Source of the DNA: a virus
DNA length: 64,000 nt
IMG/VR virus record: IMGVR_UViG_3300034105_004543
Coordinates: 1-64,000 of that record
Strand: one strand, 5' to 3'
Both the position numbers and the translations under genes were made by a program. Below the pieces are notes generated by a model. It saw only the letters and a list, made by a program, of their open reading frames with translations, ran no database searches and was not told the DNA's origin. Position 1 is the stretch's first letter. Every line of letters starts with the position of its first letter. Positions 10,929-42,417 of the stretch are shown here, in pieces.

Positions 10929-12575
10929 ATGGCTTTCGACCAAAAACTTATTTCCCAATTATTGGATCTTAGCAGAAATGTTGAGAAACTTTCGGGTGAG
11001 GTTAAAAAAAATACCACAGTCAATAAGGATCTTGTTAAATCAGATTCCACTGAACCAAAAACTGCGGATCAGTCTAAAGATTTATCCAAGATAGCTGAAG
11101 GGTTAAAATCGATGGATCTTAAAGGCCTTAAGGATGAATTTAAAGGCCTTAAAGATGGATTGAAAGGTATAGATAAGCTTGACTTCAGAGGTCTTGAAAA
11201 TGGGCTTAAAAGCCTTGATTTCAAAGGTCTAGAAAAAGGACTGAAAGGATTGGATTTTAAAGGACTTGAGCAAGGCCTGAAGGGATTGGATTTTAAAGGA
11301 CTTGAGCAAGGCCTGAAGGGATTTGATATAAAGGGAATAACTGAATCATTCAGGGGAATAACCAATATTAAGAATCTGGATGTTGGTGGAATGGCTAAGA
11401 ACATCGTATCTGGTGGGGGTGTTAAGGATCTTATATCTGGATCTATTGGTAAAATAGGTAAGGGAATTCTTGGAAGATTTGAGGAAGGAGGCGAGGTTAA
11501 AAAATCTGGTCCTTATCTTGTGGGCGAGAAGGGACCAGAAATTGCTAATTTATCAAAAGATACAACGGTAGTTCCAAATGATAAGACCGAAGCCATATTA
11601 TCAGGTAAACCCGCAGCGGTCAAAACTAGAATAAGACCAGGTAAATACCCATCGGCTGAGCAGATAGAAGCAAAGAAAAAAGAAATAATTGCTTCTGGTT
11701 CTCTATATGATCCCAACGATCCCGCAGAACTTGCGGAGGAGATAGAAGATTACAAGGAGCATTTTAGAATGAAAAGTTTACAGAGTCCTAATAGTGATAT
11801 TAAGGAAACTTTCACTATGGGGGATGTAGCAAAACTTGGAAAATCTACAAACAAAGACGTAAATTCTGAATCAACTTCCGGTATAAAGAGTCAGATGGAT
11901 GTATTATCAAAAGGATCCCCTGATGCTTCTAGCGCAAAGAAAAAATCTAGAAGAGAGAAAAAAGCTGAACTTGAAGAAAAAAAACCGGGACTTTTTTCCA
12001 AATTGTTCTCTAAGGAGAACATTAAGAGTGTTGATGATAAAATAGGGGGAGCAGCAAGTGGATTATTGGGAGGTGAATTAAAAGATAAACTAACCGGAAC
12101 TTTAAAAGGATCCGCAGAGTCCCTTATCAATAAGGAAAGTCTAGGTATCCCCGATTTTGCTAAGAGTACATTAACATCGGGTCTTTCATTTCTTAATAAG
12201 GGATCAAAGGAAAAATCACCAACACTCTTTGGTGATATGAAGAAGAATCTGCCTACACTTTCCAGTATGCCAGGTATTAAATCCAAGGTTGAAGCTGCAG
12301 CATCTAAGGTAGTAAATAATATCGAATCAAAATCACCAATAAATGATATATTGGGAAATAATACCCCACCTGGTATGGCCAATACAGAAACGGTTAAAAC
12401 TGAGGGTGAATCGTCAGCAGCTGGGCCAAAACCTGGCGGGGAAGGAGGTACTATTACAAAAAAAGACATAGATACAATAATATCTTTACTTTCTAGAATG
12501 GGATCTTTACTGGAAGGACCTTTAAGTGTTGCATCCATGGATTCTCCAATAAGACCTGATTCTAGAAGAGTTTAA
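10929..12575 (+). CDS. Tape-measure-like tail protein with amphipathic repeats
   Basis: 548 residues. Residues ~57-140 are amphipathic 11-12-residue repeats (LKGLDFKGLEQG type), two of them identical at DNA level. Next is GGEVKKSGPYLVGEKGPEIA (about 188-207), a Gly-rich motif common in phage tape-measure proteins (YLVGE.GPEI...VVPN). The rest is a Lys/Ser/Gly-rich region with long helices. Length is close to T4 gp29 (590 aa), and it follows the tube and baseplate genes. It probably sits in the tail lumen and sets tail length or takes part in DNA ejection. No membrane segment or lysozyme domain is evident. The family motif is reasonably specific; the rest is inference. Confidence 0.55.
   Translation: MAFDQKLISQLLDLSRNVEKLSGEVKKNTTVNKDLVKSDSTEPKTADQSKDLSKIAEGLKSMDLKGLKDEFKGLKDGLKGIDKLDFRGLENGLKSLDFKGLEKGLKGLDFKGLEQGLKGLDFKGLEQGLKGFDIKGITESFRGITNIKNLDVGGMAKNIVSGGGVKDLISGSIGKIGKGILGRFEEGGEVKKSGPYLVGEKGPEIANLSKDTTVVPNDKTEAILSGKPAAVKTRIRPGKYPSAEQIEAKKKEIIASGSLYDPNDPAELAEEIEDYKEHFRMKSLQSPNSDIKETFTMGDVAKLGKSTNKDVNSESTSGIKSQMDVLSKGSPDASSAKKKSRREKKAELEEKKPGLFSKLFSKENIKSVDDKIGGAASGLLGGELKDKLTGTLKGSAESLINKESLGIPDFAKSTLTSGLSFLNKGSKEKSPTLFGDMKKNLPTLSSMPGIKSKVEAAASKVVNNIESKSPINDILGNNTPPGMANTETVKTEGESSAAGPKPGGEGGTITKKDIDTIISLLSRMGSLLEGPLSVASMDSPIRPDSRRV
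11247..11318 (+). repeat. Two identical tandem 36-bp units
   Basis: Units 11247-11282 and 11283-11318 are identical. Each encodes 12 residues of the LKGLDFKGLEQG repeat within the tape-measure-like gene. Flanking units are diverged versions, indicating recent duplication. Confidence 0.9.
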
Positions 12576-18035: not shown

Positions 18036-20597
18036 ATGGATTTTATAAATCAAGTTAAAAAAGTAAAAGAAATCACAAAATCTCCGGAGGTAAAAGCTTT
18101 ATGCGAAAGTTTCCTTAGTGGTGATTCAGTTTCTAAGGAGAAACTAGTAGTTTTGATTAGCGAACATAATACATCCATGGATTTAGATAATTCTGGAAAT
18201 AATATACACAATCATATGGATTTAATAAAAAGGGAAGAGTCGGAGATCTCTAAAAAAGCTGCTAATTCGCTTATGGAATCTTGGACCGGTTTAGGAAAAT
18301 CTACATCAGGTAGTAATTCTGGATCATATTCAGATAAACCTAAACAAAATAAAAATGAAGAGGACTCGCTATACGAAAATATCAGCAATTTGGAATCCTC
18401 TGATCTTGTTGCAAAATCATTTATTGATACACAAAGTGTAAAGAATCTTGGTATTAGAAATGCTATAGAAAAGATAAAGGAATCTTCCATCTACACATAT
18501 CCTAAAGCTAAAATTGTTTGTGAACAATATCAATATCTTTTGGAAAATAAAGGAGTTCCTGAATTTTCACTTATCAACAATTTCATAAATGAACTTGCTT
18601 CGTTTTCTTGGGACTCATCAATAGCACCCATTGAGGCGGAATTAAGAGAAAAAGCAAAAACATTTTCCAGAGAAATTGAAGTTGCTAAAGTTTTAGAATC
18701 TATAAAAAATAGCGGAAGCTCTTCTTTCTATTCTGAGCTTTCTGAAACACTTAATGAGTGGTTAGTTTCTGAGAATAAATCTAATGGTCTGTTGGTAAGA
18801 AATATCAGTAAATTTAACTTTAATCCAGTAATCAAAAATCTTATAAACTTTTTGAATATACACGAAAGTACTGATAGCAGAAAATTAGAGGTGCCTGTTA
18901 ATATACAAGGAGAATCTAGCGTTTCTAAAGTTTACTCACCGGTTCTTTTCGAGAACGGAAGAACGTTCTTCTTTATAGGTGGATGTATATTTGAAGCTGA
19001 TTCATCTTCCTTAAGAAAATTAGGAAAATCCGAATATTCTTCTCTACCTGAAAATTATCTAAGACTTTCATTAACGACCATGAAGTCTCATGTAAAAATA
19101 AACGAGTCAGGAATCTCTGTTAAACTTGGTAATAAAATAGTTACCATGATTGAAGAAAATGACAAGGTTTCGGTTTATCTTGGAAAAGACAAACTTAGAT
19201 TTGGTGACACCGTAGGTTTGGCTAAAATAATTGGTCTTGAATCCTCATCATATTTTGGTGTTAATGAATCGGAATCAGTAGGTGACATTATGACCCTTTA
19301 TACAAGCTATTCTTCCGTGGTTGAATTAGATTTTGCAAAATCCATAACATCTAATGTTTATGAGGGTCTTGGAATTAATCTTTTCAAGTGGAATGGTCAA
19401 ATATATCTTCAGAAAATAAATGAGGCTATGAGAGAAAATTCACTTTATGAAGTTAATGGATCTCAAGCTGTTGCTATGGTTAAGAACTTTATGAGATATG
19501 ATATCTCGGAGGGTTTAACAGAATTTCTTGATGGTGAATCTAAGGTTAAATCTGTAATGATAAATGACAGAAGTAAAGTTCTTGAAAATATCTCTAAAGT
19601 GGAAGGTGAGATTACAAAAGTTGAAACGCTTATGGAATCTAATTCATTATACAAAAACTCAAAAGAAATCAAGATTGCACATTCTATGCTTGAAAGAGAA
19701 TTACAATCTCTTAAAAGCAAATGGAATCAAATAAATATAGAGATTCAAAAAGTTGATGCTGATATAAAATTACATGCGGATGTCGATTTATTCGAGGATC
19801 AGAAATTTAACATAGGTTCTTTTGTTAAGGTTAAGGAATCTGGAGATACTGGTAAAGTAATTTCAATCGATAGCTCATCAGGAAGATATACAATCCTTCT
19901 GGATACAGGTAAAACTGAGGATCACCAGATAAATGATCTAGCTGATTTGGACGAGGCTTTAAATAAAGCTGCTGATGATAATGCTGAATCTATGGACTCT
20001 GATGACAATAATGACGATAATGGATCAGTTAAAGAATCTAATAACCTTAATAAATCCAAACTACCTGAAAGTGAGCAAAAAAAAATATTAAAGAAATTTG
20101 CTGGTATGCACGGATTCTCTAAAGCTCCTGGTGCGGATAACGGTCAAATAGAAATGGATGGTGATTCCTTACATGGGTATAATAGAACAATGAACGAGGC
20201 TAAAGCGGATCTTAAGAACAGAACATCTAAAACTAAAGACCCAGTAAATGACAAAAAAGCACAGATGTCTGATATTAAAAATAAATCATTGTCTGTTGCA
20301 AGTGATAAGAAGGAAAATTCTAAATTAACTAAAGGTACATCAAATACTAATTTTGCTGAAGCTCCTGGCGATGATAATATAAACAAAGGTAAAAACGTAA
20401 ATCCAAAAAATAATCTGGGTGCTGCTCCTGGTAATCACAATAAAGTAAACGGTAAAGAATTAGGTAAAGATTTAGTTAGAAAAGCTCCTGAGGGTAAAAA
20501 CAAATCTTCTGAATTTAATGCTAATGATGTGAAAGACGAGGAAGTTTATAACGCTGGTTATAATCTTAAAGAATCTGAAGAAGTAAAAAAAAACTAA
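18036..20597 (+). CDS. Large helical, probably head-associated protein (zero-frame product)
   Basis: 853 residues in the zero frame. Residues 1-130 are charged, with a Ser/Asn-rich linker. Residues ~130-560 are mixed alpha/beta with repeated INE/VNE sites (KINESGIS, GVNESES, KINEAM). A coiled coil lies at about 510-575. A small KOW/Tudor-like barrel is at about 587-632 (FNIGSFVKVKESGDTGKVIS). The last ~200 residues are Lys/Asp/Asn-rich and disordered, with several 'AP(G/E)' motifs (SKAPGADN, EAPGDDN, GAAPGN, KAPEGK). The zero frame stops at TAA 20595-20597, directly after nine A residues; the same style of sequence continues in the -1 frame. Internal head or scaffold role is an inference from the NE sites. 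Confidence 0.65.
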   Translation: MDFINQVKKVKEITKSPEVKALCESFLSGDSVSKEKLVVLISEHNTSMDLDNSGNNIHNHMDLIKREESEISKKAANSLMESWTGLGKSTSGSNSGSYSDKPKQNKNEEDSLYENISNLESSDLVAKSFIDTQSVKNLGIRNAIEKIKESSIYTYPKAKIVCEQYQYLLENKGVPEFSLINNFINELASFSWDSSIAPIEAELREKAKTFSREIEVAKVLESIKNSGSSSFYSELSETLNEWLVSENKSNGLLVRNISKFNFNPVIKNLINFLNIHESTDSRKLEVPVNIQGESSVSKVYSPVLFENGRTFFFIGGCIFEADSSSLRKLGKSEYSSLPENYLRLSLTTMKSHVKINESGISVKLGNKIVTMIEENDKVSVYLGKDKLRFGDTVGLAKIIGLESSSYFGVNESESVGDIMTLYTSYSSVVELDFAKSITSNVYEGLGINLFKWNGQIYLQKINEAMRENSLYEVNGSQAVAMVKNFMRYDISEGLTEFLDGESKVKSVMINDRSKVLENISKVEGEITKVETLMESNSLYKNSKEIKIAHSMLERELQSLKSKWNQINIEIQKVDADIKLHADVDLFEDQKFNIGSFVKVKESGDTGKVISIDSSSGRYTILLDTGKTEDHQINDLADLDEALNKAADDNAESMDSDDNNDDNGSVKESNNLNKSKLPESEQKKILKKFAGMHGFSKAPGADNGQIEMDGDSLHGYNRTMNEAKADLKNRTSKTKDPVNDKKAQMSDIKNKSLSVASDKKENSKLTKGTSNTNFAEAPGDDNINKGKNVNPKNNLGAAPGNHNKVNGKELGKDLVRKAPEGKNKSSEFNANDVKDEEVYNAGYNLKESEEVKKN
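20588..20594 (+). other. Candidate -1 frameshift slippery site A AAA AAC
   Basis: In the zero frame the codons read GTA AAA AAA AAC TAA. The heptamer A-AAA-AAC at 20588-20594 is a classic bacterial -1 slippery sequence, one codon before the stop. I saw no strong downstream hairpin or upstream Shine-Dalgarno-like stimulator. A homopolymer-length error in the sequence would give the same picture. Confidence 0.6.
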
Positions 20598-20761
20598 GTC
20601 GTAACTTCTATTTCGCTCCTAAGGGTGAAAATCAGAATAAACCTGGAAAACCTTTTGTCCAATCTATGAAAGGTAAATTCTCTAAAGCACCTACAGGAAA
20701 ACCTGAGGATGCGGATGATTCTGAGGATAATAACGATGATTCAGACGAGGATAAACAATAA
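20594..20761 (+). CDS. -1 frame extension of the preceding protein
   Basis: Reading on in the -1 frame adds 55 residues (LSRNFYFAPKGENQNKPGK, then KGKFSKAPTGKPEDADD and an acidic end) before TAA at 20759-20761. It carries the same 'AP' motif and composition as the upstream C-terminal tail, and it has no start codon near its beginning. It is therefore best read as the end of the same protein (908 residues in all). A terminator follows 7 bases later. Confidence 0.65.
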   Translation, partial: LSRNFYFAPKGENQNKPGKPFVQSMKGKFSKAPTGKPEDADDSEDNNDDSDEDKQ

Positions 20762-20767
20762 TTTAAG

Positions 20768-20803
20768 AAGAATGTAGTATTTTTTAACTACATTCTTTTT
20801 TTT
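20768..20803 (+). terminator. Rho-independent terminator
   Basis: Stem AAGAATGTAGT (20768-20778) pairs with ACTACATTCTT (20787-20797), followed by T-rich sequence to 20803. It marks the end of the frameshifted gene after 20761. Confidence 0.85.
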
Positions 20804-20866: not shown

Positions 20867-21226
20867 ATGGCAAAAGTTTATGTAAAGAATAGCGAGCTGA
20901 TGGCAGCGGTTATAGAATCGAAAAATGCTGGAAAGCTAACACCCGCAACAATAGATATGTTTAATCTGATGATTGAGGGTATATCTAAAAAGATGTCATA
21001 TAAGGATCCTGAGGATAGAGAGGATTGTATGGCTTTTGCTATGGAAGATCTATGCAAATATTGGAATAGATTCAATCCTGAAAAATCAAACAATCCTTTT
21101 GCATATTTTACACAAATAGCAAAGCATGGATTTGCTAAAGGATGGAAAAAATTGCACCCTCCTAAAAATCCAGTAACTATACCATTCAGTTATATAACAG
21201 GTGAGGATAATTCATATAATATCTAA
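20867..21226 (+). CDS. 55: Late-transcription sigma factor, gp55-like, short form
   Basis: 119 residues. It aligns by eye with the first two thirds of T4 gp55: YVKNSELMAAVIESK (T4 YVNNKELLQAIIDWK), LMIEGISKKMSYKD (T4 LIAEGLSKRFNF), a helix ending in FNPEKSNNPFAYFTQIAKHGFA (T4 ...YKNPHAYITQACFNAF), then a basic KKLHPPK. This is the sigma region 2 core that binds polymerase and the -10 box. T4 gp55 is 185 aa; the C-terminal part that carries the sliding-clamp-binding tail is absent here. It lies beside gp4 and portal genes and probably directs GATATATA promoters. Confidence 0.72.
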   Translation: MAKVYVKNSELMAAVIESKNAGKLTPATIDMFNLMIEGISKKMSYKDPEDREDCMAFAMEDLCKYWNRFNPEKSNNPFAYFTQIAKHGFAKGWKKLHPPKNPVTIPFSYITGEDNSYNI

Positions 21227-21749: not shown

Positions 21750-23378
21750 ATGGCAGGTTTCGTAAATAATAATAAACCAACAGAGTCACCCGTTGTACAA
21801 AGGATAAGAGAATCAGTTAAAAAACTGAGTACTTTTGGAATGAAGTATGATGATATGGTGATAAGAAATTCACAGGCTGTTGGTGTGACTGAAGCGGCTT
21901 TTCTTAATAAAAATAAAGCCAACGTAGAGGACGAAAGCATGCTATGGTCCCTTGCAAAGCAGGATATTACCACTCGACAATTTATAGGATATTTTGACAA
22001 GGATTATAAGGGAAAGAGGGATTTTTTAAGAATGTTTTCTTTAAATCCTGAGATTGAATATGTACTTGATACTATTTGTGACGAGGCTATAACTTATGAT
22101 CCAGCTAATTTCTTTGCATATCCTGATTTTATAGATCTTACTGATGCAAACGAGAAGGTAAAAGATGAACTTTATGACACATATAAAAATCTCTATGATA
22201 TATGGGGATTCTCTGATGATATAACTGCATGGCAATATTTTAGACAGTTCATTATCGATGGATTTTTGTCATTTGAGATTATTTATGATGATACCGGTAA
22301 AAAAATAGTTGGGTTTAAGGAGCTTGATCCTGTAACATTAATACCCAGCGTGGAGAAACAATTGGATGGAAGTTTTCTTAGTACATGGACTCAATACCCT
22401 CAGGATCCAAAGAAAAAACGTACCCTTTATGATCCTCAGATAATTTATATCTCATATGCTAAGGGAAATTCAATATCAAGAGTTAGTTACATAGAGAGAT
22501 TAATAAGACCATATAATATATTAAGAATTATAGAATATACTAGAGTTATTTGGTCCGTTATGAATGCATCATTTAAAATGAAAATGACAGTTCCGATTGG
22601 CACAAAGTCACAGCAGAAGGGTATGCAGACACTTGGTGAACTTATGAGTATTTATAAGGAAGATATACAGCTTAATGACGAGAGCGGTGAGCTTACTATT
22701 GATGGTAGTCCAAAGATTCAGTTTTATAAGAATTACCTTATGCCTTCAGGAGTTAATGGTACACCAACAATAGAACCAATAAATACAGAGGGACCTAATC
22801 TTAATGATCCCGCTCCTCTAACATATTTCTTCGATAAATTCATATTAGAATCCAAAGTACCTCCTTCAAGGTTTCATAATCCTGATGGTGGTAGTACATC
22901 ACCATATTCGAATGGTGCAGAGGGATTAGACAAGGAGGAAATAAGATTCTATAAATTTATATCCAGACTTAGATCAGTTTTTCAAGAAATATTAATCAAG
23001 CCGTTATGGATTCAAATGATTAATAAATACCCATATCTGGAGAAAGACTTTTTGTTTAAAAGTCAATTAGGACTTAATTATTGGTCCGATAATCCATTTA
23101 AGGAGAACCAAGAAATAGCAAAAATGTCGGGAAGAAAAGAAACTGTTACCGGTCTTGGTGGACTCCTAAATGATGATGGAAAACCATTTTTTTCAAACGC
23201 TTTCCTTATAGAGGAGTATTTAGGTATGTCTAAACAGGATATAATAGCAAATAAAGAAGCTAAAGAAAGAAAAATAAAAGAAAAAGCAGAAGCTGCTAAA
23301 AAAGAAGGAGCTGGTGCAACTGGAGCGGCCGGTGAAAAAAAAGAAGGCGGAGAAGAACCACCACAAGTAACACTATAG
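21750..23378 (+). CDS. 20: Portal protein, copy 1 (gp20-like)
   Basis: 542 residues, close to T4 gp20 (524). Family features include NPEIEYVLDTICDEAI near residue 95, WQYFRQFIIDGFLSFEIIYD (crown and clip region), YIERLIRPYNILRIIE helix, IQFYKNYLMP followed by EGPNLNDPAPLTYFFDKFIL (T4: ENYWFP... LGDIEDVLYFKKKLY), then VPPSRF. The portal dodecamer is the DNA gate at one vertex and nucleates prohead assembly. The C-terminus is Ala/Gly/Glu-rich and ends EEPPQVTL, exactly like the next gene's product. Only 4 bases separate the two. Confidence 0.92.
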   Translation: MAGFVNNNKPTESPVVQRIRESVKKLSTFGMKYDDMVIRNSQAVGVTEAAFLNKNKANVEDESMLWSLAKQDITTRQFIGYFDKDYKGKRDFLRMFSLNPEIEYVLDTICDEAITYDPANFFAYPDFIDLTDANEKVKDELYDTYKNLYDIWGFSDDITAWQYFRQFIIDGFLSFEIIYDDTGKKIVGFKELDPVTLIPSVEKQLDGSFLSTWTQYPQDPKKKRTLYDPQIIYISYAKGNSISRVSYIERLIRPYNILRIIEYTRVIWSVMNASFKMKMTVPIGTKSQQKGMQTLGELMSIYKEDIQLNDESGELTIDGSPKIQFYKNYLMPSGVNGTPTIEPINTEGPNLNDPAPLTYFFDKFILESKVPPSRFHNPDGGSTSPYSNGAEGLDKEEIRFYKFISRLRSVFQEILIKPLWIQMINKYPYLEKDFLFKSQLGLNYWSDNPFKENQEIAKMSGRKETVTGLGGLLNDDGKPFFSNAFLIEEYLGMSKQDIIANKEAKERKIKEKAEAAKKEGAGATGAAGEKKEGGEEPPQVTL

Positions 23379-23382
23379 TAAG

Positions 23383-24999
23383 ATGGCAGGATTTTTAGAC
23401 TTTATAAAACCAAACCAATCAGCATTAGGTAATATACTGAAGAATCTGGGTAGTATATCCAAATTTGGAATGCAGTATGATGATATGATTGTTAGAAATT
23501 CCCAGGCTATTGGTAGAACTGAGGGATCTTTTTTTAACCAGGAGGGAACAGGATATACAAAGGATAGCGCATTCCAATGGACTGCATCCTATCATGATAC
23601 GAAGGTAAGAAAATATATAGCCTACTTTGACAAATCCTATCTGGAAAAGAGAAATTATTTGAGGAAATTCTCAATAAATGGTGAGATTGAATTTATACTT
23701 GATATTATAACAGATGAAGCTATAGTTTATGATGATAGAAATTATTTTGCACAGCCATCTTTTTCCAATATAGATCTAAAGGATAAGGTCAAAGAAAAAA
23801 TAAGCTCACACTTCAATAGGCTCTATAATATATTTCAATTTCAGAATACTGTTCTTGGGTGGCAGTATTTTAGACAATTTATAATAGATGGATTTCTAGC
23901 TTTTGAAATTATTTATGATAATAAAGGTAAGGAAATAATAGGATTCAAGGAATTGGATGCAGTATCGCTTCAGCCAGTTGTTGAGAAGGTTGGTGAGAAT
24001 GAATTTAAACAGTTTTGGTTACAATATCCTGCAAATCCCCAGATGTTTAGAAAACTTACTGATGAACAGGTTATCTACATTTCTTATGCTAAGGGTAACA
24101 CGATATCAAGAACAAGCTATATTGAGAGACTCGTTAGATCCTACAACATACTAAGAATTATGGAGAATTCTAGAGTTATATGGAATGTAATGAATGCAAG
24201 TTACCGAATGAAATTCATTATACCTATTGGAACGCAGTCACCTCAAAAAGCAATGCAAACTCTGGGTCAGCTTATGTCCAGTTATAAGGAAGACATAAGT
24301 ATTAATGATTCTTCCGGTGAATTAACGGTTAATGGTAGACCTAAGGTTCAATTTTATAAAAATTATCTATTTCCCGAGCAGAATGGTGTTTCTCCTCAGA
24401 TATCATCGCTTAATCCAGCAGGTCCGGATTTCAACGTTATGGATAATGTTCTTTATTTCTTTAATAAATTAAAAATGGATTCTAAAATACCATATGCTAG
24501 ATTTGCTGCAAAGAATGGAACTCCAGCAAATTATCAGATAGCAATTGATCAATTAGAAAGGGATGAGATAAGATTCGAAAAATTCTTAAGAAGACTTAGA
24601 TCTATATTCCAAGAAATATTGGTAAAACCCCTTTATATCCAGATGTGTTTGGATTATCCAGAGTTAGCCAAAGATAGAAACTTCAAAGCAAATATTGGAC
24701 TTAATTTTAATAGAGACCTTGAATTTGAAGAACAGGTTGAAATGACAAATCTTAAGAAGAAAGGTGAATTTATAACATCATTGGCTGACCTTAAGATTAA
24801 GGCTGGCGAGGAGGATGTTCCATATTTTGATAATGACTTTCTTATTCAAAGATTTCTTGGTATGTCACCAGATCAGCTCAAACTGAATGAGATATACAAA
24901 AAGAATGAGGAGAAATCCGCTCCCGCTCCTGCGGCCGGGCAACCTCCCGCTTCCGCGGAGGGAGCTGAGGCGGAAGAACCACCACAAGTAACTTTATAA
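23383..24999 (+). CDS. Portal protein, copy 2 (gp20 paralogue)
   Basis: 538 residues, colinear with the preceding portal throughout: FGMQYDDMIVRNSQAIGRTE (copy 1 FGMKYDDMVIRNSQAVGVTE), WQYFRQFIIDGFLAFEIIYD, VIYISYAKGNTISRTSYIER, FYKNYLFPEQ, and the same EEPPQVTL end. All segments that define the fold are intact, so it is not a decaying copy. The two could form a mixed ring, or serve different assembly steps. The 3' end is markedly GC-rich (CCCGCTCCTGCGGCCGGGC region) compared with its surroundings. A terminator follows. Confidence 0.88.
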   Translation: MAGFLDFIKPNQSALGNILKNLGSISKFGMQYDDMIVRNSQAIGRTEGSFFNQEGTGYTKDSAFQWTASYHDTKVRKYIAYFDKSYLEKRNYLRKFSINGEIEFILDIITDEAIVYDDRNYFAQPSFSNIDLKDKVKEKISSHFNRLYNIFQFQNTVLGWQYFRQFIIDGFLAFEIIYDNKGKEIIGFKELDAVSLQPVVEKVGENEFKQFWLQYPANPQMFRKLTDEQVIYISYAKGNTISRTSYIERLVRSYNILRIMENSRVIWNVMNASYRMKFIIPIGTQSPQKAMQTLGQLMSSYKEDISINDSSGELTVNGRPKVQFYKNYLFPEQNGVSPQISSLNPAGPDFNVMDNVLYFFNKLKMDSKIPYARFAAKNGTPANYQIAIDQLERDEIRFEKFLRRLRSIFQEILVKPLYIQMCLDYPELAKDRNFKANIGLNFNRDLEFEEQVEMTNLKKKGEFITSLADLKIKAGEEDVPYFDNDFLIQRFLGMSPDQLKLNEIYKKNEEKSAPAPAAGQPPASAEGAEAEEPPQVTL

Positions 25000-36849: not shown

Positions 36850-38814
36850 ATGTATAAAATGCCAACAACTAAAAATTTAAACGAAGAATTGGTTTTCATC
36901 CTTGAGAGACAATCATCAGTACTTGAATCTTCAAAGACTGATAATGATGATTATGTACTAGAAGGTACTGCTGCTGTTTTCGGTAAAGAGAATAACAACA
37001 ATAGAATCTACGAAGAAGCTGAATATCTTCCGCACCTAAACTATCTTAATGAGAAAATAGCTCAAAGAAGACTAGTTGGTGAATTAGATCATCCTGAAAA
37101 GTTTGATGTTTCTCTTAAGAACATTTCTCATATAATTGAAAAACTTGATCACGACAAGACTGGAAGGGAAATTAAGATCAAAGTTAGACTTTTAGATACC
37201 CCTATGGGACAGATAGCTAAAAATCTTGTTGATGCTGGTGTTCCTTTGTCAATCTCTTCTAGAGCAGCTGGTTCCGTTGGTAACGATAAAAAAGTACAGA
37301 TTAAAAAAATATTCACATACGATCTAGTTGCTGATCCTGGATTTCAGGACGCACAGCTAGAAAGAGTATACGAAAGCGCTGGATATCACCTTAATGATTT
37401 CTTCGAAATGAGAAATAAAAGTGTTACTAACGATCTTCTTTGTGTAAATGAATCATTAGGTCTAAAAAATGATTCTGACACTAAGATATATAAAGTTGAA
37501 AATAACGAAGAATTTAATAATCTCGTATCAAAATCAGATAAAAATAAGACGATCCTCATGGAGAATAATGAATTTGTGACTGCAGAAGAATTAAACCAAT
37601 ATTCTGTTTTCTTAAAAAAGGAAATGGAATCAATGAATTCTAAAATTGCAGAAATTAAAGAGCAAAAGCAAGTATTAGTTGAATCTAGTGTTGAAGATAA
37701 AAATTCAAACCTTGAAGAAAGAGTTGCTAAATTAGAAAAATATTCTGAGTATTTAGCTGAGAATTTAGATAATGCTATTAAGTATGGTGAATACCTTGCT
37801 GAAAACTTAGACGAAAGTATAAGCTATAGTAAATATCTTGCTGAAAACTTAGATAAGAATATTTCTTACTCTAAATATCTAGCTGAAAATGTTGACAAAT
37901 CAATTTCTTACACTGAGTATGTTGCAGAGTCAACAGATAAAGGAATAGAATATACAAAATACCTTGCTGAGAAATTAGATCAGAATATTCAATATTCTGA
38001 ATATATAGCGGAAAACCTTGATAAAGGTATTTCTTACTCTGAGTATCTTGGTGAAAACTTAGATAAAGGTATAGCCTACTCTGAGTACTTAGCAGAAAAA
38101 TTAAATGATGGTATTGAGTATACTGAATACCTTGCAGAAAATCTTAACAAGAATATTCAGTATTCTGATTACTTAGCAGAAAATGTTAATAAAGGTTTAG
38201 ATTATTCTGATTACCTAGGAGAAAAATTAAAAAAATCAATTTCTTATACTGAATACATAGCTGAAACTGTTAATACAACTAGATACAAAGCTAATGACAC
38301 ATTAAGGGAAAGCGTAGATCTTTCTGCTTCCGCAGGATTAAACGAATCCGGATTTGCTGGAGACTATACAGATCTTACAACAAGAATAGATAGTTTGATA
38401 GAATCAGTTAAAACACAAAAAACTGAATCAAATATAAACGAAGCTTCTAAGTCAATGAAGCAAACAGCCAACACACAAAAGGCAGACGAAGTTCTTAACG
38501 AAAATGAGAACAAAAACAAAACAGGTCTTAATTTTATTGACACAATGCCTGAAGAATACACACAAGTTTGGGAATCACTTACTGAAGGACACAAGCAATC
38601 AATTATTGCTCAAAGTAACTTCTATAGATTAGATACACCTTACCAAGTGAAAAACTTCTGGTCAACACGTCAATTAGGAGCTGCTACTGTTGGAGTTCAA
38701 AAATTAGATGAGAGCGAGAATATTGCAATGCCTAATACACAAGCAAATGGTTATTCTAACGAATATATGAATGCTATTGCTTCTGCATTAGAGAAAAAAT
38801 TTCAAACAAGATAA
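36850..38814 (+). CDS. 21: Prohead protease fused to repeat scaffold (gp21 plus core)
   Basis: 654 residues (645 if ATG 36859 is used). Residues ~25-185 are the gp21-type serine protease: NNNRIYEEAEYLPHLNYLNE, LVGELDHPEKFDV (catalytic His; T4 ALGELNHPP), AGVPLSISSRAAGSVG (catalytic Ser; T4 WIPGVSSRGLGS), FTYDLVADPGF. Residues ~230-295 are helical. Residues 298-478 are twelve exact-length 14-residue units of the type YSEYLAENLDKGIS, two heptads each, strongly predicted as coiled coil. The end has cleavage-like sites (GLNESG, NINEAS, VLNENE). T4 encodes protease (21) and scaffold (22) separately; here they are one chain just before the capsid gene. Confidence 0.88.
   Translation: MYKMPTTKNLNEELVFILERQSSVLESSKTDNDDYVLEGTAAVFGKENNNNRIYEEAEYLPHLNYLNEKIAQRRLVGELDHPEKFDVSLKNISHIIEKLDHDKTGREIKIKVRLLDTPMGQIAKNLVDAGVPLSISSRAAGSVGNDKKVQIKKIFTYDLVADPGFQDAQLERVYESAGYHLNDFFEMRNKSVTNDLLCVNESLGLKNDSDTKIYKVENNEEFNNLVSKSDKNKTILMENNEFVTAEELNQYSVFLKKEMESMNSKIAEIKEQKQVLVESSVEDKNSNLEERVAKLEKYSEYLAENLDNAIKYGEYLAENLDESISYSKYLAENLDKNISYSKYLAENVDKSISYTEYVAESTDKGIEYTKYLAEKLDQNIQYSEYIAENLDKGISYSEYLGENLDKGIAYSEYLAEKLNDGIEYTEYLAENLNKNIQYSDYLAENVNKGLDYSDYLGEKLKKSISYTEYIAETVNTTRYKANDTLRESVDLSASAGLNESGFAGDYTDLTTRIDSLIESVKTQKTESNINEASKSMKQTANTQKADEVLNENENKNKTGLNFIDTMPEEYTQVWESLTEGHKQSIIAQSNFYRLDTPYQVKNFWSTRQLGAATVGVQKLDESENIAMPNTQANGYSNEYMNAIASALEKKFQTR
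37741..38286 (+). repeat. Thirteen 42-bp coding repeats (14-residue units)
   Basis: Twelve complete units of exactly 42 bp run 37741-38244 without indels, plus a diverged thirteenth. Consensus protein unit YSEYLAENLDKGIS. DNA has diverged more than protein, with synonymous changes, pointing to selection on the protein. Confidence 0.93.
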
Positions 38815-40665: not shown

Positions 40666-42417
40666 ATGGAACATTCTAAAGAATTACAATTACTGATAGT
40701 TTCTTTAATAGACTGCAGAGATAGGGGAAAAAGCTCAACTGGAGAGTTTACTAGAATGAGAGGAAAAACATCACTGTTTTCTGAGATTGGTGTACTTACT
40801 GCTTATTTGGATGATGAATGTACCGATGTTGGATTAGCACAAAGATTATATCATCTCCGTGAAAATATTAATTTTGTACAATATTGTGGATGCTGTAGGG
40901 AAAGAGGAATTTTAAATTCTAGAAAATTTCATAGATTAAGTACCGGTTATTTTGCAACATGTGGTTCTAAAGAATGCAAGAGAAAAACTAAAATTAATTC
41001 ATTTAGATCAACAATAGAAGAAAAATATGATGGTAACTATTTCGGAGAAGGTTCAGTAGCTAGAGAAAAATATAAATCAACAATGATTGGGAAATATGGC
41101 GTTGATCATAACTGGAAATCAGGTGAATTGAGGGATGCTGCTGAAACGACAATGATTGAGAAATATGGGGTAAAAAATGCTTTGTCTAATCCTGAAATAT
41201 TGGAAAAAAGAAATCTAACATGTATAAGTAAACATGGAACGTTAGATTTTATTAATTCAGAAAAATCAAAAGCAACAACTTTTATTAAATATGGTAAGAA
41301 TAATGCTATGCAAAATGATGCAATAGCAAGAAAAGTTGCTATGTCCTCATCAGCGACAAAACAGAGGATCTTATCCGATAAATTGGAATTTTTTAATATA
41401 ACACTTCTTAATTATAATTCAATAAGATCCAAATTTTTGTGTAATAAATGCTCAACTGTATTTGATAATCACCCAGTTACTATAAATCATAAGATAAGAA
41501 TAGGATCTGATCCATGTATTAAATGTAATCCACCAAGCCTTACCTCGTCCATAGCGGAGAATGAATTTTCAGATTTCATCACCACAATATATTCTGGAGA
41601 GATTAAAAAAAATGATAGAGAATTATTCAGAGGAAATCCAAAATTTTCTGAGGTTGATGTGTATTTACCTGAATTAAATATAGCTTTCGAGTATAATGGC
41701 TTATATTGGCATTCCGAAATTTATAAGAATCCCACATACCATATTGAAAAAACTCAAAATCTATTATCTAACGGGATTAAGCTGTATCATATTTGGGAGG
41801 ATGATTGGTTGTATAAGAAGGATATAGTAAAATCGATGGTGTCCGCGATATTAGGAACATGTACTAGAATATATGCAAGGAAATGTAGGGTTGATTACGT
41901 TACTTCCGCTGAGTATGTAAAATTTACTAAAGAAAATCATCTGAAGGGTTATTCAACGGCAAGTAAAGTGATAGGTCTTTATTACAATGATGAACTAATT
42001 TCTTTGATGAGTTTTTCGAAAACCCGTAAATTGATAGATTCAAGTACTAGCTTATATGAATATGAATTAATAAGAAGCTGCACGAAAATGAATTATAGTG
42101 TTGTTGGCGGAGCATCCAAATTATTTAATTTTTTCAATAATAATATAGGAAGATCATTAGTAACATATTGTGATGTATCATTTTCTCCCGATTTAACGAG
42201 TACTGCATATAGTAAATGCGGTATGGAATATTTGAAACTAACTAGCCCAGGATATTATTGGGTAATAGACGGAAAAAGATCAAATAGATTAAATTGGACG
42301 AAGCAGAAATTAATAGATGCTGGTTATCCACCAGAGAAAACAGCTGATGAGATTATGACAGGGATTGGTGCATATAAAATATGGGATTGCGGAAACCATA
42401 AATTTTCTAAAAAATAA
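40666..42417 (+). CDS. Large free-standing homing endonuclease (Vsr-like/Hef type)
   Basis: 583 residues. Cys pairs (CGCC, CGSKEC) near residue 70-105 and later CNKC/CIKC suggest zinc binding. Residues ~120-230 hold short repeats of the type MIGKYGVDHNW / MIEKYGVKNAL / FIKYGKNNAM, typical of DNA-binding arrays in phage endonucleases. The nuclease core has EVDVYLPELNIAFEYNGLYW followed by HSE, and LYHIWEDDWLYKKDIVKSM, fitting the Vsr-like EDxHD/PD-(D/E)XK group. The C-terminal part (YYNDELISLMSFSKTRK) is another specificity domain. It lies between the capsid terminator and a late-type promoter, so it is likely a mobile insertion. Confidence 0.82.
   Translation: MEHSKELQLLIVSLIDCRDRGKSSTGEFTRMRGKTSLFSEIGVLTAYLDDECTDVGLAQRLYHLRENINFVQYCGCCRERGILNSRKFHRLSTGYFATCGSKECKRKTKINSFRSTIEEKYDGNYFGEGSVAREKYKSTMIGKYGVDHNWKSGELRDAAETTMIEKYGVKNALSNPEILEKRNLTCISKHGTLDFINSEKSKATTFIKYGKNNAMQNDAIARKVAMSSSATKQRILSDKLEFFNITLLNYNSIRSKFLCNKCSTVFDNHPVTINHKIRIGSDPCIKCNPPSLTSSIAENEFSDFITTIYSGEIKKNDRELFRGNPKFSEVDVYLPELNIAFEYNGLYWHSEIYKNPTYHIEKTQNLLSNGIKLYHIWEDDWLYKKDIVKSMVSAILGTCTRIYARKCRVDYVTSAEYVKFTKENHLKGYSTASKVIGLYYNDELISLMSFSKTRKLIDSSTSLYEYELIRSCTKMNYSVVGGASKLFNFFNNNIGRSLVTYCDVSFSPDLTSTAYSKCGMEYLKLTSPGYYWVIDGKRSNRLNWTKQKLIDAGYPPEKTADEIMTGIGAYKIWDCGNHKFSKK

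Follow-up and report, generated by a model that had tools for sequence, protein, structure and literature searches.

The window analysed here is a stretch of 64,000 nucleotides of viral DNA (positions 1 to 64,000 of IMG/VR record IMGVR_UViG_3300034105_004543). On its plus strand an open reading frame of 853 codons (18036–20597) ends in GAA GAA GTA AAA AAA AAC TAA. This end comprises a run of nine A residues (A9; 20585–20593), the heptamer A AAA AAC (20588–20594) and the zero-frame stop codon TAA (20595–20597), which lies directly 3' of the AAC codon and terminates the 853-residue product; the zero frame therefore ends one codon past a heptamer embedded in nine A's, as originally predicted. On the same strand the -1 frame stays open from 20594 to 20761, that is, for 55 codons followed by TAA (20759–20761). 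It begins CTA AGT CGT AAC TTC TAT TTC GCT CCT and specifies the 55-residue peptide LSRNFYFAPKGENQNKPGKPFVQSMKGKFSKAPTGKPEDADDSEDNNDDSDEDKQ, which has the AP-motif character of the upstream part of the protein that the prediction had ascribed to it. A plus-strand intrinsic terminator hairpin with a 14-bp stem (z = -6.5) follows at 20765–20800, confirming that the tail stops just short of a terminator, and the stem is also found in relatives. The next gene (20867–21226, plus strand) codes for a gp55-like late sigma factor and follows the site in every one of the 42 groups of relatives described below.

The 853-residue protein consists, in order, of a helical N-terminus, two beta-rich regions, a coiled coil, a small SH3/KOW-like beta unit and a disordered end. 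An AlphaFold model (pTM 0.36) likewise shows a core of helices and beta structure together with a coiled coil and approximately 145 disordered C-terminal residues, which carry (F/L)xxAPG and GYNxxE repeats. No known head protein emerged as a homolog: there was no PHROG match, no Pfam hit over the cut-off and no PDB match at E ≤ 0.001. BFVD yielded eight fold matches at E ≤ 1e-3, some of them to proteins from the Tenacibaculum phages PTm1 and pT24. Only one is annotated, as DNA ligase, and its TM-score is low; the others are uncharacterised. The low TM-scores reflect the flexibility of the model. Profile searches revealed no homolog in phages PTm1, pT24, MaF61, MA9V-1 or PAU, and no relatives were found in prokaryote genomes. 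LR756500 and the Lak phages contain distant homologs which lack both the tail and an A run at the gene end; in LR756500 the gp55 neighbour is retained.

The window is A-rich, with seven A9 runs on the plus strand. Since A9 is not rare in such a sequence, the arrangement in a single genome could be due to chance and a comparative test was needed. A second A9 within the 853-aa gene (20077–20085) is absent from relatives, which indicates that long A runs are not retained for their own sake. Among the gene-end A runs of the window, only that of the 853-aa gene is followed by a long -1 extension.

More than 100 relatives of the protein were located in IMG/VR. Seventy-eight loci have a readable gene end and form the comparison set; they fall into 42 groups, defined by more than 10% difference across the 150 nt 3' of the run, with core identity down to about 37%. 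The run is A9 or A10 in 78 of 78 loci, whether in the gene or in a separate tail ORF, so that the slippery site is conserved among homologs, a check which the original prediction had proposed. By group the length is exactly A9 in 36 of the 42 and A10 in the other six, with no other length. The conserved tail is encoded in the -1 frame in 40 groups and never in the +1 frame; it is fused in frame in one group and forms a small ORF of its own in another. In 39 groups the zero-frame TAA occurs 0–3 nt past the run, and in L024 it occurs 35 nt past it. A pattern scan of 2.9 million viral contigs recovered the same context with A9 in 39 cases, and with A8 or A10 in none.

The tail itself shows the pattern LSRxFxFAP, FV or FI, GKxSKAPxGK and then an acidic end (LSRNFYFAP...GKxSKAPxGK). 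Its dN/dS in the -1 frame is about 0.01–0.25, with synonymous sites often near saturation, indicating strong purifying selection at the protein level on the shifted-frame extension. Run, stop and -1 tail are thus all conserved despite near-saturated synonymous divergence. The tail was not found on other proteins in eight genomes, barring a weak match to an in-gene repeat in G009.

Homopolymers are error-prone and some relatives are fused in frame, so that the window could in principle hold a misread A10 in one continuous ORF, or a decayed gene with a relic tail. Yet an identical A9 recurs in independent contigs from many metagenomes with no A8 or A10 variant in that context, the shift is -1 whatever the flanks and the codon phase, purifying selection acts on the tail, and the fused relatives are altered 3' of the run (CCCC) without having gained an A. 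Short-read biases may be common to IMG/VR contigs, but such biases would not preserve the -1 relation across contexts. From the conservation of run, stop and tail together with the dN/dS values, we regard sequencing error, a pseudogene and chance as excluded for practical purposes. Poly-A runs are also prone to replication slippage, which might alter the genomic run length and toggle the tail by phase variation; neither the 78 loci nor the pattern scans contained a genomic variant that fuses the frames by length only, and this explanation is very improbable.

Separate translation of the tail, by re-initiation or from its own start past the TAA, would agree with three relatives (L152, L153 and L161) in which an ATG of its own opens a separate tail ORF. 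Against it, none of the 42 groups checked has an ATG, GTG or TTG among the first 12 codons of the tail, most have no ATG anywhere in it, and neither the A run nor the -1 relation would then need conserving; we consider it highly unlikely. In the window an internal ATG (the Met of QSMKGKF) is located roughly midway through the tail.

These comparisons strongly support a programmed -1 frame change that would provide the gene with two C-termini. Two products from one gene, as predicted, are likely, and it is plausible that the two lengths are made in a set ratio. The arrangement looks like a deliberate and ancient device. The remaining part of the original prediction, namely that the change is made by the ribosome at A AAA AAC, is a possible reading but fits less well. 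Programmed frameshifts have mostly been demonstrated in individual model phages; here the change is conserved throughout a broad family of huge, uncultured phages, in most of which automatic annotation misses the last 55 residues.

Two mechanisms have to be weighed, and we favour slippage of RNA polymerase on the run as the probable one, while both may act. The run of nine to ten A's is kept in four run/codon arrangements (GTA AAA AAA AAC, GAA AAA AAA AAT, GAA AAA AAA ACC and TCA AAA AAA AAA GCT); an uninterrupted stretch of about nine or more is thus maintained independently of codon phase. The wobble base 5' of the AAA AAA block is A in 39 of 39 groups, as against 43% expected from codon usage, although the groups share descent and naive probabilities overstate significance. 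Six codons for five amino acids supply this A (GTA, TTA, CTA, TCA, GAA and CAA), and neighbouring wobble bases vary freely. Any of the four bases may follow the run, at the last position of the heptamer; AAC and AAT are the codons found most often.

Long runs are also avoided elsewhere in the coding sequence of these phages, for which other causes are possible. In 470 kb of such sequence, compared with synonymous shuffles, A9 occurred 8 times against 26.6 expected (0.30), and A10–A12 were absent where about 20 were expected; A8 was mildly depleted (57 against 83) and A6 and A7 were not. In the window alone the count of long A runs (5 against 6.6 expected) is not significant. A run of about nine A's is the length at which selection against slippage shows in many bacteria, and in the Thermus dnaX gene A9 gives about 50% slippage (PMC1088944); in magnesium chelatase cassettes in E. 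coli A7, A9 and A11 gave 10, 40 and 63%, respectively (PMC3711429).

In programmed -1 ribosomal frameshifting the mRNA would be faithful, and the tRNAs on AAA AAC or AAA AAA would slip back one base. Every shift-type group does possess a heptamer of the X XXY YYZ type, A AAA AAN or A AAA AAA, with A AAA AAG or A AAA AAA in 8 of 39 groups; the TAA directly 3' of the site could pause ribosomes, and the g-t gene of the archaeal virus HCTV-2 has been reported to use A_AAA_AAC (PMC5009743). A AAA AAC is, however, a weak site in E. coli, where the best heptamer ending is AAG (PMC5009743), and the last heptamer codon is free here (AAC, AAT, AAG or AAA). Moreover, a heptamer leaves unexplained both the run of at least nine in four codon phases and the conserved preceding A. 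Neither kind of stimulator expected in bacterial -1 ribosomal frameshifting was found to be conserved. No downstream RNA structure is conserved among the relatives (mean z -0.2 to -0.5 for pseudoknot-free folds), and a stimulatory structure was consequently rejected. A Shine-Dalgarno stimulator was likewise rejected, as no such element is conserved and the window genes show no preference for one (3 of 49).

Phase-independent length, the wobble A, the free 3' base, the absence of a conserved stimulator and the depletion of runs of at least nine A's together favour transcriptional slippage. The strongest argument against it is that the tandem heptamers A AAA AAA and A AAA AAN together span A9 and could partly explain the wobble A and the run length; the depletion of long runs could, in addition, stem from replication slippage. 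Ribosomal frameshifting as the sole mechanism seems unlikely to us, while deserving to be taken seriously.

Under transcriptional slippage, an RNA polymerase, presumably that of the host, would slip on the run and produce mRNAs with A9, A10, A8 and other lengths. The A9 mRNA would give the 853-residue protein ending EEVKKN, the A10 mRNA a protein of 908 residues with the tail (EEVKKKLSRN...) and the A7 mRNA one of 907 residues, also with the tail; products of A8 or A11 mRNAs would stop within about five codons. The ribosome, too, may contribute by -1 slippage at this position. We rejected a phage-encoded RNA polymerase as the slipping enzyme, since no match to a beta subunit was found in eight relatives of 218–435 kb, records which may themselves be fragments.

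The layout is rearranged in the clade of L024, L127, L160 and L152, for which tree support is SH-aLRT only. In L127, L071 and L047 the run is A10 followed by GCT TAA, and in L024 and L051 it is displaced by one position relative to the codons with the tail still in -1. The tail is fused in frame in L160, L064, L065, L070, L091 and L095, which read TCA AAA AAA AAC CCC AGT CGT; compared with the shift-type genes it is the bases 3' of the run that differ, with no extra A. In L152, L153 and L161 the main ORF stops earlier and the tail occupies a second ORF, which has an ATG of its own and begins MSSNKILDFFSYINEENADVKKNLSRNFYF. Both fused and split forms retain A9, where one added A would truncate the product within a few codons. 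In the fused lineage slippage would yield the short form, and we count retention of A9 in these genes in favour of transcriptional slippage. Together with the phase-changed and A10 relatives, the fused and split forms are natural experiments that help to tell transcriptional from ribosomal slippage by sequence.

Three further observations concern the relatives. At 11617–11839 of L066, and also in L087, L093, L152, L153 and L161, a separate ORF of 74 aa encodes the tail behind a leader that resembles a capsid targeting sequence, MSSNKILDFFSYINE. L160 and L152 have a PG_binding_1 domain (two copies in L152) inserted at residues ~120–172 of their homolog of the 853-aa protein; among the tested relatives, only fused or split ones have this insertion. 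Finally, the main ORF is broken early in L041 (6001–7392) and L151 (from 2945), and in L041 the remainder runs on in the -1 frame, still ending ...DLKKN.

The closest known system is dnaX of Thermus thermophilus, in which A9 near the 3' end of the gene likewise leads by transcriptional slippage to two products, tau and gamma (PMC1088944). The fused relatives share its layout, with the long form in the template frame and the short form made by slippage, whereas most members of the present family need slippage for the long form; moreover, dnaX serves replication and the gene described here belongs to a phage head module. Transcriptional slippage also occurs in tssM1 of Citrobacter (A11) and tssM3 of Yersinia (A9), a family in which slippage can produce either the long or the short form, depending on the relative (PMC4256274), an exchange like that seen here between fused and shift-type genes. 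Among tssM homologs poly-A runs are rare, while here the run is present in every readable member found. As in E. coli dnaX and gpG/gpGT of phage lambda, the latter from a phage assembly gene, a minority product would acquire a C-terminal extension from the -1 frame; E. coli dnaX, however, depends on a stem-loop together with an internal Shine-Dalgarno, neither of which is conserved here, and gpGT is a tail chaperone, as which nothing marks the 853-aa gene. IS elements with A8 or A9 resemble the present case in that ORFs (ORFA–ORFB) are fused by transcriptional slippage on a homopolymer, but there the outcome is transposase expression and here it is the addition of a short C-terminal peptide.

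The surroundings of the gene form a head module with a gp4-like head closure protein, two portal proteins, an S77 prohead protease, the major capsid protein, terminase and sheath. T4-type prohead proteases cut after Glu in short motifs, such as LIE in the case of gp21 and AxE in SPN3US (PMC9026906, PMC5694885). A motif of this kind, GYNLKE (20556–20573, plus strand), which resembles a site for a gp21-type protease and might act as one, precedes the run in the window. In all 42 groups an [L/I/M/V]xE motif, usually GYN(L/I)xE(S/A), lies in the disordered C-terminal region, a few residues ahead of the Lys-Lys that the run encodes. The strict form [LI]xE occurs 4–9 residues before KK in 35 of the 42, as compared with a mean of 3.9 and a maximum of 10 in shuffles. 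Similar sequences are found in the capsid protein of the window (SLNE-SAGAYN near residue 44) and in the tail ORF of the split lineage, whose short leader ends in INE like a capsid targeting sequence. The internal proteins of T4, which have a capsid targeting sequence cut off by gp21, offer a parallel in their LxE-type sites and in the S77 protease of the cluster; they are, however, not frameshift products, and cleavage in the present case is putative.

From the [LIM]xE motif before the site and the head-module context we infer a role in the head. In our working model, which we put forward tentatively, the 853-aa protein would be a head or core component cut at LxE sites by the S77-type protease, and slippage would set the fraction that carries the terminal SRNFYFAP...SKAPTGK peptide. 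The PG_binding_1 domain in two lineages speaks against this in that it also fits an injected or cell-wall-acting protein. For the reading as a programmed frame-change gene, in which RNA polymerase slips on the run, in a family of huge T4-related phages, we would give a probability of roughly 0.68. It is a more doubtful proposition that this lineage of dsDNA phages uses polymerase slippage on a fixed A9 or A10 to dose a head peptide released by the protease, with the roles of the two forms swapped in the fused genes and the peptide freed in the split ones. The head module would in any case contain an unnamed gene for a protein with two alternative C-termini, and the dosage of its conserved peptide seems to be important.

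The host of this family of huge T4-related phages is probably a member of the Bacteroidota. The 49 genes of the window have A-rich leaders, with peaks of A near -16 to -11 and at -4, and no Shine-Dalgarno preference, as expected for Bacteroidota hosts; the annotated relatives of the capsid protein are mostly phages of Bacteroidota.

Several other features of the module were observed. In L154, L156, L157, L163, L164 and L169, and in this clade only, 1–2 kb separate the tail from the gp55-like sigma gene. A homing-endonuclease-like gene adjoins the capsid gene in the window (40666–42417) and in L100 (6453–8069), and LR756500 contains another endonuclease-like ORF between the sigma gene and gp4. 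The two portal-type genes of the window (21750–23378 and 23383–24999) are in tandem and both belong to phrog_213, where T4 has a single gp20. The S77 prohead protease (36850–38814) is fused to a long stretch in which YLAE(N/K)-type repeats recur about a dozen times; it looks like a combined protease and scaffold, a single polypeptide that contains many of its own cleavage sites.
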